Below are positions 25,983-28,553 of a stretch of 64,000 nucleotides of DNA, in pieces. The DNA comes from Agarivorans albus (lineage in GTDB: Bacteria > Pseudomonadota > Gammaproteobacteria > Enterobacterales > Celerinatantimonadaceae): the NCBI RefSeq assembly GCF_019670105.1, contig NZ_AP023032.1, forward strand, positions 3,528,972 through 3,592,971. Reading direction: 5' to 3'. The notes under the pieces are model-generated. The model ran no database searches and had not been told where the DNA came from. It was given only the letters and a program-made list of their open reading frames with translations. Numbering within the stretch: position 1 is the stretch's first letter; every line of letters begins with the position of its first letter. The translations under genes were made by a program, and so were the position numbers.

Positions 25983-26293
25983 CTTAACTTAACGGCAGTG
26001 CCAAACACCATAATTTCTGAAGAACCGTCCATAATTGCACTGGTAGTAAAACGGATCCCCACCACAGCGTCAGCACCTTTGTTTTTGGCACTCTCAACCA
26101 TGCGTTGAATCGCCACGTCACGTGCTTCGCTTAGCATCTCGGTGTAACCACGGATCTCGCCGCCCACAATGCTTTTAAAGCCCGCCATAATATCGCGCCC
26201 AATGTGTTTAGACTGCACCACACTGCCAGTCACCACACCTAATACTTCGCGAGTAGGTTTTCCGGCTATTGATTCTGTAGTAGTAAAGATCAT
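25976..26293 (-). CDS. ybjQ: YbjQ/UPF0145 family protein
   Basis: A 105-residue soluble protein of the UPF0145 (DUF74, YbjQ) family. The whole family pattern is present: TTTESIAGKPTREVLGVVTG, the RDIMAGFKSIVGGEIRGYTEML core, and NKGADAVVGIRFTTSAI. Members form pentamers; a role in metal binding was proposed, but the function is not established. AAGGAA lies upstream of ATG 26293. A single gene convergent with the RND pump. Confidence 0.93.
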   Translation of the reverse strand: MIFTTTESIAGKPTREVLGVVTGSVVQSKHIGRDIMAGFKSIVGGEIRGYTEMLSEARDVAIQRMVESAKNKGADAVVGIRFTTSAIMDGSSEIMVFGTAVKLSQ

Positions 26294-26789
26294 CTTGATT
26301 CCTTAGGTGGAGTGACTTGGTTTGTACTTTGGCATGATAGCTTAAAAGCAAAATTGGCCATACTTTCATGCGAGTTACTCTTTGATTGGCTGACAAAGCT
26401 ATACTGCCGGAAAGGCTTGCTATATGTGTTGGCATCCATCAGTAGTAACGTAGAAGTGGATCTCTGATACCTAACTCGCTTTAACCCCAATAGTGATACT
26501 GCTTCCTCATAACTACCCTTAATAAACCCATGTACCTTTCGTTTTTCTAGTCGTGTGAACAAAGCACTGTGGTTATACACATGTAAATTGTGATTCCTTC
26601 TTTCCACAAAGGCTTGCATGCTTTTGTGCTGATATTTTTGTTATTTTTCGAGCTAGGTCGCTGATTTAGCTTAGAAAATGTGATCGTCTGAGTTTTATCA
26701 AATGTATGATATAAGGAAAAATTCCTTGTTTAAACAAGGAATTTTTCCTATTAATAAGCTTTTAGAAGGCAGAAAAGACTGAGGCGTAA
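26294..26789. other. Spacer between ybjQ and the cassette array
   Basis: About 500 bases with no convincing gene. A 109-codon minus-strand reading frame (26290-26619) lacks a ribosome-binding site and any recognisable motif. The distinctive element is the perfect 36-bp palindrome at 26714-26749. The 5' boundary of the first integron cassette must lie here, but no full attC or attI site is seen; GGCGTAAGTG at 26782-26791 is reminiscent of an attC 3' end and may be chance. Confidence 0.45.
26714..26749. repeat. Perfect 36-bp palindrome (possible bidirectional terminator)
   Basis: Bases 26714-26731 are the exact reverse complement of 26732-26749, centred on GTTTAAAC. The transcript would fold with CCTTG/CAAGG flanked by A- and T-tracts on either side, so it could terminate transcription in both directions. 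It sits at the edge of the integron cassette array. Confidence 0.8.
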
Positions 26790-26996
26790 GTGACAAAGAG
26801 ACTTGAGCTGGTATCAGGTAGCAAAAAACTAGTTATCGAACACGATTTACCCGAGGTCGGGTGCTACTTGTATGTTTATGAAGGTGGCTGTTGTATCCAC
26901 GACTCATTGCAAGACACCGAAGAACTTGCGAAAGAAGAAGCCCATGAGAAGTGGGGTGTTGAAGAAAGCGAATGGCCCAATGAACCTACTCGCTAA
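26790..26996 (+). CDS. Integron-cassette hypothetical protein (cassette 1)
   Basis: A 68-residue acidic protein (LELVSGSKKLVIEHDLPEVGCYLYVYEGG, then a helical DTEELAKEEAHEKWGVEE). GTG start at 26790 with no strong ribosome-binding site. Small proteins with this style of beta-then-helix layout are often met in Vibrio-type cassette arrays; I cannot name a function. Its stop is followed about 66 bases later by an attC site, so it belongs to a gene cassette. Confidence 0.65.
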   Translation: MTKRLELVSGSKKLVIEHDLPEVGCYLYVYEGGCCIHDSLQDTEELAKEEAHEKWGVEESEWPNEPTR

Positions 26997-27062
26997 AGCA
27001 CACGTTTTCGCAGGGCATTATTTGGTTCTTCTGGTGATGCGCAAACACCTGGTTGTGCTGCC

Positions 27063-27167
27063 ATCTAACAAGCAAATCAACCGAGCACTCGTCGCTGCGC
27101 TCCTCGCGGGGACAAGTGCCACGACACGGCGGAGCCGCTGCACTTGCCCGTTATTTGGGCGTTATAC
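27063..27167 (+). repeat. attC recombination site 1
   Basis: Begins with ATCTAACAAGC (R'' pattern RYYYAAC) and ends with GGGCGTTATAC (R' GTT core), 105 bases. The interior can fold through GGGACAAGTGC / GCACTTGCCC. The final GTTATAC is the exact complement of the GTATAAC that begins attC 2, as expected for the two ends of one cassette. Confidence 0.82.
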
Positions 27168-27179
27168 GTCAGGATCGAA

Positions 27180-27464
27180 ATGGAACAATCAATTACACTA
27201 AATATCCCTCAAAATTTAACCGACGAACAATGGGAAAAAATTTCTGAAGTTTATCGAAGTATGGATGGGTGGCTAGAAGGCCTGAACTTTCCATATTGGT
27301 ATGGTTCAGAAGGTGAAGAAAAATTTATTTCGGTTTCATTTGAACCAAGTGGTTTTCTTTTTACTGGTAATGTAAGTCATGATTTTTGGGTAGGTTGGAT
27401 GACACAAATTTGTGCGAAACTTTCCTTGGCTTTAGGTCAAGAAGTATATGATGCAACAATGTAA
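27180..27464 (+). CDS. Integron-cassette hypothetical protein (cassette 2)
   Basis: A 94-residue soluble protein, rich in aromatic residues (WYGSEGEEKFISVSFEPSGFLF). The frame extends 36 bases further upstream, but that part overlaps the attC site; ATG at 27180 lies just downstream of GTTATACG, the normal position for a cassette gene. No family is recognised. The base composition is AT-richer than that of neighbouring chromosomal genes, in line with transfer. Confidence 0.65.
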   Translation: MEQSITLNIPQNLTDEQWEKISEVYRSMDGWLEGLNFPYWYGSEGEEKFISVSFEPSGFLFTGNVSHDFWVGWMTQICAKLSLALGQEVYDATM

Positions 27465-27468
27465 AGAC

Positions 27469-27491
27469 GTATAACAAAGCTAATCAAAGAT
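27469..27491 (+). repeat. Vestigial attC site 2
   Basis: GTATAACAAAGCTAATCAAAG matches the first 20 or so bases of attC 1 (ATCTAACAAGCAAATCAA), but the middle and the 3' core are missing and the next gene starts at once. It looks like an attC site truncated by deletion, fusing cassettes 2 and 3. Confidence 0.6.
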
Positions 27492-27971
27492 ATGAATGAA
27501 ATTTATAAATGTCCTAAGTGTTCTGATGATCTTGGTATGTCGGGAGGTAAATATTGCTGTTGGAATTCTGACTGTGATTTTTGTTCTTACCGCCCTTGGA
27601 TTAGTCCTCCTGAAAAAATTGAAGAGTTTGATATTTCTAAAGATCTCGAAAATATTATTGGTGAGTGCCTAAGCGCATCAGGCTATGGACCTTTCTTTGT
27701 AGATGAAGGAGCTAAAGATAACCCATATTGGGAATATGAGACTTTGTTGGGTTTTCCACCAGAGGAGGTTCAGAAAATATCTAAACAGTGGCCAAACGTA
27801 AATATCTCAGATGTGCATGTTTCTGAGCTTATTAGTTTTTGTTTTTGTAATTTAATTAACTACCCGCACAGGTGCGAGAAATACTGGTCAGAGTATTTAT
27901 CAGTGAGTCGAGAGCAATTAATCGAGTTTGCCACTTTCTGGAGAAAATCTAAATATGTGCAAAGCACCTAA
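27492..27971 (+). CDS. Integron-cassette protein with N-terminal zinc-ribbon-like cysteines (cassette 3)
   Basis: A 159-residue soluble protein. The N-terminus has CPKC near residue 7 and further cysteines at CCWNSDCDFC (about residues 22-31), a layout that could bind zinc. The rest is acidic and helical with no recognised motif. ATG 27492 follows the attC remnant directly; its TAA stop lies inside the R'' sequence of attC 3. AT-rich and unlike the flanking chromosome. Confidence 0.68.
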   Translation: MNEIYKCPKCSDDLGMSGGKYCCWNSDCDFCSYRPWISPPEKIEEFDISKDLENIIGECLSASGYGPFFVDEGAKDNPYWEYETLLGFPPEEVQKISKQWPNVNISDVHVSELISFCFCNLINYPHRCEKYWSEYLSVSREQLIEFATFWRKSKYVQST

Positions 27972-28065
27972 CAGGCAATTAAAACGGAACTAAAATAGTG
28001 GGTTAGATTTCGCTTTGCTACACACTAGAACCCACAATTTTAGTCCGCTTATTGCGGCGTTAAGT
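27966..28065 (+). repeat. attC recombination site 3
   Basis: Starts ACCTAAC and ends GCGGCGTTAAGT (R' GTTAAGT fits GTTRRRY), 100 bases. Arms at 27986-28004 and 28029-28046 are complementary apart from one mismatch and one extra, unpaired base. An extrahelical base of this sort is the known strand-recognition feature of folded attC sites. Confidence 0.88.
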
Positions 28066-28071
28066 GTTTAT

Positions 28072-28425
28072 ATGTCCTGTAGCTGCAGCAATCTTTCAAG
28101 CACTTGTTACGCTGAACCAAGTGAGCTGGAGTTCGTCAGGAATTTCGAGCTTATAGAGGTAGATGCTAAGGAATGGCGGCAACTCTATATCTGTAAATTC
28201 TGCAAGCAGATATGGTCTGTTGAGCATGAGGAAATAATGAACAAGCTTCCTCGTCGAGCATTCAAGCTAAAAGATACAGAAGAATTCTTAACTCATGATT
28301 ACCAAGAGGCAATAGAGGCGTTAAAAATTCGTGAGAAAGGTGGTTTATCAGATAAAGAGTGCTTACAAAAAGGCTGCTCAAATAAGGCATTATTAAACTG
28401 TTATCTATGTGCAAAACACTATTGA
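28072..28425 (+). CDS. Integron-cassette hypothetical protein, cysteine-rich (cassette 4)
   Basis: A 117-residue soluble protein with several Cys pairs: MSCSC at the start, an ICKFCKQIW motif (CxxC) near residue 43, and CLQKGC plus CYLCAKHY at the C-terminus. It may bind zinc. The frame opens at 28015 inside attC 3; ATG 28072 just after the GTTAAGT core is the more likely start. The function is unknown. Confidence 0.65.
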   Translation: MSCSCSNLSSTCYAEPSELEFVRNFELIEVDAKEWRQLYICKFCKQIWSVEHEEIMNKLPRRAFKLKDTEEFLTHDYQEAIEALKIREKGGLSDKECLQKGCSNKALLNCYLCAKHY

Positions 28426-28429
28426 AATC

Positions 28430-28513
28430 ACCTAACAAGCGGCGGCAGCCTCGGCCCTACGGGCCTGGACTCACAAAGCTACGCTTTGTTCGCCGCTGCG
28501 CCGGGCGTTAATA
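28430..28513 (+). repeat. attC recombination site 4
   Basis: Starts ACCTAACAAGCGGCGGCAGC and ends GCCGCTGCGCCGGGCGTTAATA, 84 bases. Two internal mini-hairpins are present (GGCCC-TAC-GGGCC and ACAAAGC-TAC-GCTTTGT). It closes the array: no further cassette gene follows before the hut genes. Confidence 0.87.
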
Positions 28514-28553
28514 CTAAGTATGTCTAGCTTGGGTGACTCAAACATCAAGGCAT

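Follow-up and report, generated by a model that had tools for sequence, protein, structure and literature searches.

Clusters of attC sites lacking an integron integrase (CALINs) are roughly as common as complete integrons in sequenced genomes (2961 versus 2760) and are usually seen as degraded integrons (PMC9024848). The same paper, which describes IntegronFinder 2.0, states that detection of attI sites does not extend beyond class 1 integrons, meaning that any CALINs headed by an attI would go unseen. CALINs have been described in Xanthomonas at conserved secondary loci and are mobilisable in trans (PMC12444791) and are numerous in Shewanella (PMC9229058); the accessible portions of these two papers make no mention of an attI heading a CALIN. 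The promoters of intI genes are known to be under SOS control (PMC3108266). Here, we analysed a cassette array in a 64,000-nucleotide stretch of the Agarivorans albus chromosome (NZ_AP023032.1, positions 3,528,972 to 3,592,971, hereafter the window), in which four small genes are each followed by a complete or truncated attC site. The array begins with an attI leader, and we consider it probable that it is a satellite integron platform—an attI leader without intI, with cassettes loaded at its crossover, most likely by an integrase (IntI-A) acting in trans. A literature search of partial coverage returned no report of solitary attI platforms, which is no proof of priority.

The locus shares features with several described systems and differs from each of them. 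Like a CALIN, it has at least two attC sites and no intI nearby, and IntegronFinder would call it one, but it starts with a full attI/Pint leader whose cognate intI lies at another place in the genome. With sedentary chromosomal integrons it shares an attI, a leader with an SOS box, a single cassette orientation, attC sites with extrahelical bases and crossover/R'' complementarity; however, intI is absent here and several attI platforms are present per chromosome instead of one. In0 elements (intI without cassettes) are likewise half an integron standing alone; the window holds the opposite half, an attI with its cassettes but no intI. The Delta-attI cassettes of class 1 and 2 integrons (PMC12901181) also place attI sequence away from intI, but in those mobile resistance integrons attI fragments form the 3' site of a cassette, whereas here whole leaders head separate chromosomal arrays. 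Finally, attG cassettes lie outside a canonical integron too, but there is no attI at attG insertions, in contrast to the full attI leader observed here.

An attI leader at the head of the array

A preliminary description of the array, made from the sequence alone, classified it as a CALIN and reported no attI site in the window. An attI/Pint leader is in fact present immediately upstream of the first cassette, with the following features (window coordinates).

26490–26764, forward strand: attI/Pint leader, type A, a solitary copy with no intI to its left
26567–26582, no strand assigned: SOS (LexA) box with one mismatch, CTGTGGTTATACACAT
26647–26677, forward strand: most conserved motif of the leader, from a motif search, TTCGAGCTAGGTCGCTGATTTAGCTTAGAAA
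26714–26749, no strand assigned: 36-bp perfect palindrome directly before the attI core, AGGAAAAATTCCTTGTTTAAACAAGGAATTTTTCCT
26761–26763, forward strand: attI crossover triplet, TTT (GTT in nearly all other copies, by alignment)

Positions 26589–26764 (176 bp) are 85% identical (BLAST, E = 1.7e-51) to the leader found between intI-A and its first cassette, and the match stops exactly at the attI crossover, identifying the array as an integron platform without intI rather than a bare CALIN. The sequence from 26469 or 26518 to 26765 matches other solitary leader copies in congeners at 79–87%. Of 45 type A leaders, 18, mostly without an adjoining intI, have an exact CTGT-N8-ACAG SOS box, and several further attI sites were noted by eye to have palindromes at the equivalent position. 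In other genera of the order, attI regions adjacent to intI often have this core, TAATAAGCTGTTA, as their end, again preceded by a palindrome, providing independent support for the assignment of the leader as an attI. The core in the window reads ATTAATAAGCT-TTT-A; its orthologues in the Agarivorans genomes G001 and G003 keep GTT (G and L numbers denote genomes and loci, respectively, and G000 is the window genome), and the crossover in the window has probably been inactivated. A small open reading frame (ORF) on the minus strand at 26290–26619 was considered as a replacement for intI and rejected: it runs through the SOS box and, by eye, one solitary leader copy carries a 1-base frame change there.

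attC sites of the array

An earlier scan that relied on a strict motif and fold energy missed sites 1 and 3 and gave way to an arm-pairing scanner and then to a covariance model. The model was built from 49 training sites, all outside the array in the window, using a 60-column gapless alignment obtained by trimming the loops, because MAFFT misaligned the variable loops of full-length attC sites. It has the canonical shape, comprising R''/R' arms, 3-nt spacers, L''/L' arms and one extrahelical base. The training sites were picked partly for arm pairing, which biases their covariation counts towards structure, and the sites in the window were excluded from training. Exactly three complete attC sites were found by the model in the 64-kb window, the next-best match scoring 11.8 bits.

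27060–27170 (core 27063–27167), forward strand: attC 1, complete; covariance model 41.7 bits, E = 2.5e-7 in the 64-kb window
27466–27491, forward strand: attC 2 remnant, R'' and the start of L'' only, the right half being gone (from the sequence)
27963–28068 (core 27966–28065), forward strand: attC 3, complete; covariance model 32.9 bits, E = 2.9e-5 in the 64-kb window
28427–28516 (core 28430–28513), forward strand: attC 4, complete; covariance model 36.0 bits, E = 5.2e-6 in the 64-kb window

The attC sites of the window are real. The three cores coincide with the complete sites of the preliminary description, and the truncated site that it placed after the second gene is genuine as well: the remnant R'', GACGTATAAC (27466), and the 5' end of the cassette that it closes, GTTATACGTC (27161), are complementary at 10 of 10 positions. 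The arm-pairing scanner, which is separate from the model, scored two of the sites at 21.0 and 22.3 and the third at 16.5. A score of 20 was reached in 0 of 120 trials on the shuffled window, and 1.3 matches per strand are expected by chance at scores of 16 and above; the evidence for the third site is therefore its position and its match to the covariance model. When folded, the bottom strand of the 27966 site adopts the canonical attC shape with an extrahelical base, bearing out the unpaired base reported there before, and a full canonical fold of attC 1 and attC 4 was not shown by minimum free energy alone. A search of the window against Rfam returned tRNAs only.

The left part of attC 3 is also present in Pseudoalteromonas and Catenovulum, and the R' of attC 4 (28507) is part of the original right flank, identity to G003 beginning at 28504. 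Separately, a recurring 55-base attC-like site (AACRAATAAGAATA...CTTATTCGGGTGTTGAA) was observed in several arrays (L050, L051, L052 and L058). With three complete sites clustered within 1.5 kb, the window contains the two or more clustered attC sites by which a CALIN is operationally defined; the earlier classification thus holds as far as a cassette array without an adjacent integrase is concerned, but it overlooked the attI leader and the two intact intI genes of the genome.

Integron integrases in the genome

The source genome is a single contig of 4.79 Mb that encodes two intact integron integrases, IntI-A at 3,343,913 and IntI-B at 3,897,618 (443 and 434 bits with TIGR02249, for which the cut-off is 265). 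The nearest intact intI to the array encodes IntI-A and lies on the same chromosome at a distance of 211 kb, next to an attI of the type seen in the window; the protein (320 aa) has intact integrase motifs and is ~97% identical in three congeners. In line with the preliminary description, no intI was detected in the window by tblastn, nor was an intI remnant. Compared with a complete integron, the window has the attI at the head of the array and lacks intI in cis. The IntI-B gene belongs to a second complete integron (L010, G000 3,894,880–3,897,354) with five cassettes, in which the attI is preceded by the palindrome AGGAAGCACGTGCTTCCT.

Dispersed leaders in Agarivorans and other genera

Type A leaders are dispersed throughout the genus. 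A first search gave 3–5 copies per congener, and a search with the 32-base leader motif (at most three mismatches) gave 46 matches in eight genomes, with 0 for the reversed motif: 6 in the window genome, 6, 8, 10, 6, 5 and 4 in six congeners, and 1 in a related genus. Two genomes yielded additional diverged copies, and the chromosome of the window holds ~8 type A copies in total. Overall, each of seven Agarivorans genomes carries 4–10 copies, with up to ~10 per chromosome, and the leader was absent from the plasmids and viral contigs searched. Only 4 type A copies have intI-A within 1.5 kb, two of them adjacent to it and two ~1.4 kb away with other DNA between. In the alignment, almost every copy stops at a common base, beyond which the sequences diverge completely.

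The 39 copies with a clear core were used to compare the ten crossover bases with all downstream decamers ending in AAC, over seven variable positions. The crossover matched a downstream R'' perfectly in 15 of the 39 copies and with at most one mismatch of seven in 30; when crossovers were paired with the downstream DNA of other copies, the corresponding values were 1.3% and 14.5%. The dispersed attI sites thus follow the logic of cassette insertion.

Solitary copies have their left ends just left or just right of the SOS box, and many of them have a common left extension that the intI-adjacent copies do not have. A dispersed, sometimes tandem repeat of ~250 bases (GTTGAAGTAACTCGCTACGCTCAAACAG...) was observed directly left of leaders L046, L047, L055, L069 and L071. 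With regard to how the attI unit spreads, no terminal repeats or transposase were found in a search that was not exhaustive; at L046, checked for a simple empty site, G000 has different DNA, and no clean empty allele, duplication or terminal repeats were seen. The leader, crossover and first R'' of L072, from Alginatibacterium, are nearly identical to those of L129 in G002, a likeness across two genera that suggests transfer of the whole platform between them. L072 also holds a type B attI, in a genome that has no full intI.

A second dispersed leader family, type C, precedes two further arrays of the window genome (at 388k and 1124k). It occurs in three copies in G000 (387962–388242, 1123730–1124020 and 2088652–2088869; L165, L166 and L178), two in G001, one in G003 and four in G004; intI-C adjoins one of the G004 copies (L085) and is absent from G000. 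Each multi-attC array found in the window genome is headed by an attI leader, on the basis of a genome-wide attC list that may be incomplete (150 of 1333 candidates were scored). L136 (G003, type A) and L166 (G000, type C) occupy the same locus behind a porin-like gene; they share 0.96 kb of flank, and their similarity ends 5 bases past the SOS box.

To cover other genera, sets of genomes were searched with 13 attI regions taken from elsewhere in the order. Of the 13 genomes of other integron-bearing taxa, 7 (G017, G064, G083, G115, G139, G151 and G163) had extra attI copies whose fetched flank held no full intI and which had a crossover-matched attC downstream, a count that leaves aside the copies in G009 and G126, which lie near contig ends, and most extra copies in G197, which have no clean core.

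Cassette turnover at shared loci

Two loci could be compared between species. The locus of the window (locus 1) lies between ybjQ-like and hutZ genes, and its flanks are 94–98% identical in G000, G001 and G003. All three genomes have the leader and none has intI, while G001 carries different cassettes and G003 one other cassette; the four ORFs of the window are thus not a fixed part of the core genome of its relatives. On the right, the window and G003 are identical from GGCGTTAATACTAA on, with one mismatch in 197 bases; the point at which this identity begins is the crossover end of the last attC site, a different one in each genome.

At locus 2 (2,408,751 in the window genome), the left flank together with the leader (5,373 bases) shows 93–96% identity among the three species, with the match breaking off at the crossover. 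The right flank starts with TTAATAAACAATAG in all three, with one mismatch in G001, and the segment between the flanks consists of different DNA of 0.84, 2.76 and 10.4 kb. As the three species share the intI-less flank and differ in their cassettes, the intI-less state is older than the divergence of the species and the exchange of cassettes came later. Comparison of these loci thus indicates that cassettes have been exchanged without an integrase in cis at two loci in three species, for which action in trans by IntI-A is the simplest explanation. Of the hallmarks of a satellite platform as defined here, two are present: a cognate intI elsewhere in the genome, and turnover at an orthologous platform without intI in cis (G000, G001 and G003).

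Cassettes and their open reading frames

The cassettes and ORFs of the array are as follows.

26762–27161, forward strand: cassette 1; 5' end against own attC R'', 1 mismatch in 7
26790–26996, forward strand: ORF of cassette 1, 68 aa, no known family
27162–27491, forward strand: cassette 2, attC truncated; GTTATACGTC/GACGTATAAC complementarity 10/10
27180–27464, forward strand: ORF of cassette 2, 94 aa; distant relatives (33–37%) on Butyrivibrio and Ruminococcus plasmids
27492–27971, forward strand: ORF of cassette 3, 159 aa, cysteine-rich N-terminus; 30–33% to hypothetical proteins of Streptomyces and Tistrella
28072–28425, forward strand: ORF of cassette 4, 117 aa, ATG at 28072

All cassettes have one orientation, with attC sites and R'/R'' complementarity; the 5' end of cassette 3 is deleted and falls outside the complementarity check. 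Loss of the right half of attC 2 joined cassettes 2 and 3 as a single unit. The four genes were described as lacking recognisable function, and none matched a Pfam or NCBIfam family, the matches to PADLOC and PHROG being marginal only. The cassette 4 protein gave weak, far-from-convincing PADLOC matches to the candidate defence family PDC-S02 (E 0.006–0.013). All four were also said to be AT-richer than their surroundings, which is correct for three relative to the window average but not for the first (46% GC).

Interpretation and significance

The array is an operational CALIN but is better read as a satellite attI platform, of which the genus has many. In such a system, SOS-induced IntI from one locus would recognise attI copies elsewhere. 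Circular cassettes would be inserted between the G and TT of the attI core, one after another, by attI × attC recombination at the crossover, and would presumably be expressed from the leader. For the window, catalysis in trans would fall to IntI-A, whose gene lies 211 kb away next to an attI of this type; most likely it was IntI-A, rather than an earlier integrase, that loaded the cassettes.

Several points weigh against this assignment. Loaded leaders are present in G005 and G006, which have no IntI-A, and G001 has only a C-terminal intI-A fragment (L080/L145, at 3,228,584) alongside at least six leader copies; the fragment marks a recent loss of the integrase. In the window itself the crossover is mutated to TTT and the right half of attC 2 is lost, and the platform may now be inactive, frozen or dead. 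Whole arrays could possibly have been exchanged by homologous recombination through the shared flanks, although this would still require an integrase to load such an attI somewhere. Trans action by IntI is something that we infer. Finally, in another genus, the solitary platform L222 retains a 38-aa stretch from the start of intI beside its attI, indicating that loss of intI is one origin of satellites.

This remnant, the intI-A fragment of G001 and the marks of decay in the window (the TTT core and the truncated attC 2) are what would be expected if the solitary attI were the leftover of a complete integron decaying in situ, its intI deleted after capture in cis and nothing moved since. We regard this history as unlikely for the window, which retains no intI remnant: the collinear intI-less flank and leader of locus 2 (93–96% over 5.4 kb in three species) precede different cassettes, pointing to later turnover, and the left extension common to many solitary copies is absent from the intI copies. 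Insertion of stray cassettes at a genomic site unrelated to any attI (attG) is documented for integron cassettes, as discussed in PMC12444791, and could account for the single attC sites at 1187k and 1509k of the window genome, neither of which has a leader of any of the three types; for the array in the window it is highly improbable and is refuted by the leader at its head, since the 176-bp attI match ends where the array starts and the same junction recurs at ~40 loci. Scarcely credible, too, is an ordinary dispersed repeat of the kind of a miniature inverted-repeat transposable element (MITE) or a repetitive extragenic palindromic (REP) sequence, with cassette arrays beside it by chance: the leader is indeed dispersed, has a palindrome and has no known transposase, but it also stands between intI and cassettes in the complete integrons L007 and L060, ends to the base at the crossover with a core common to attI sites of other genera, and is followed by a crossover-matched attC in 30 of 39 copies.

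Taken as satellite platforms, the solitary attI sites of Agarivorans and other genera suggest that many integrase-less clusters are docking stations rather than debris. A broader proposal, which we advance tentatively and hold to be possible rather than probable, is that integrons in this order form distributed systems, in which the attI/Pint unit of about 200–300 bp, bounded on the left at or beside the SOS box and on the right at the crossover, is a proliferating element that founds new capture loci, with one or a few SOS-induced integrases serving all of them in trans; among marine gammaproteobacteria, many CALINs would then be active satellites and not degraded integrons. Surveys of integrons could seek attI leaders by homology to the intI-attI region of each genome itself. 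If many CALINs start with an overlooked attI, they would be sites that a distant integrase can load, and cassette capture would be spread over several places on the chromosome that each have neighbours and a promoter context of their own, with one SOS-controlled enzyme in charge of all.
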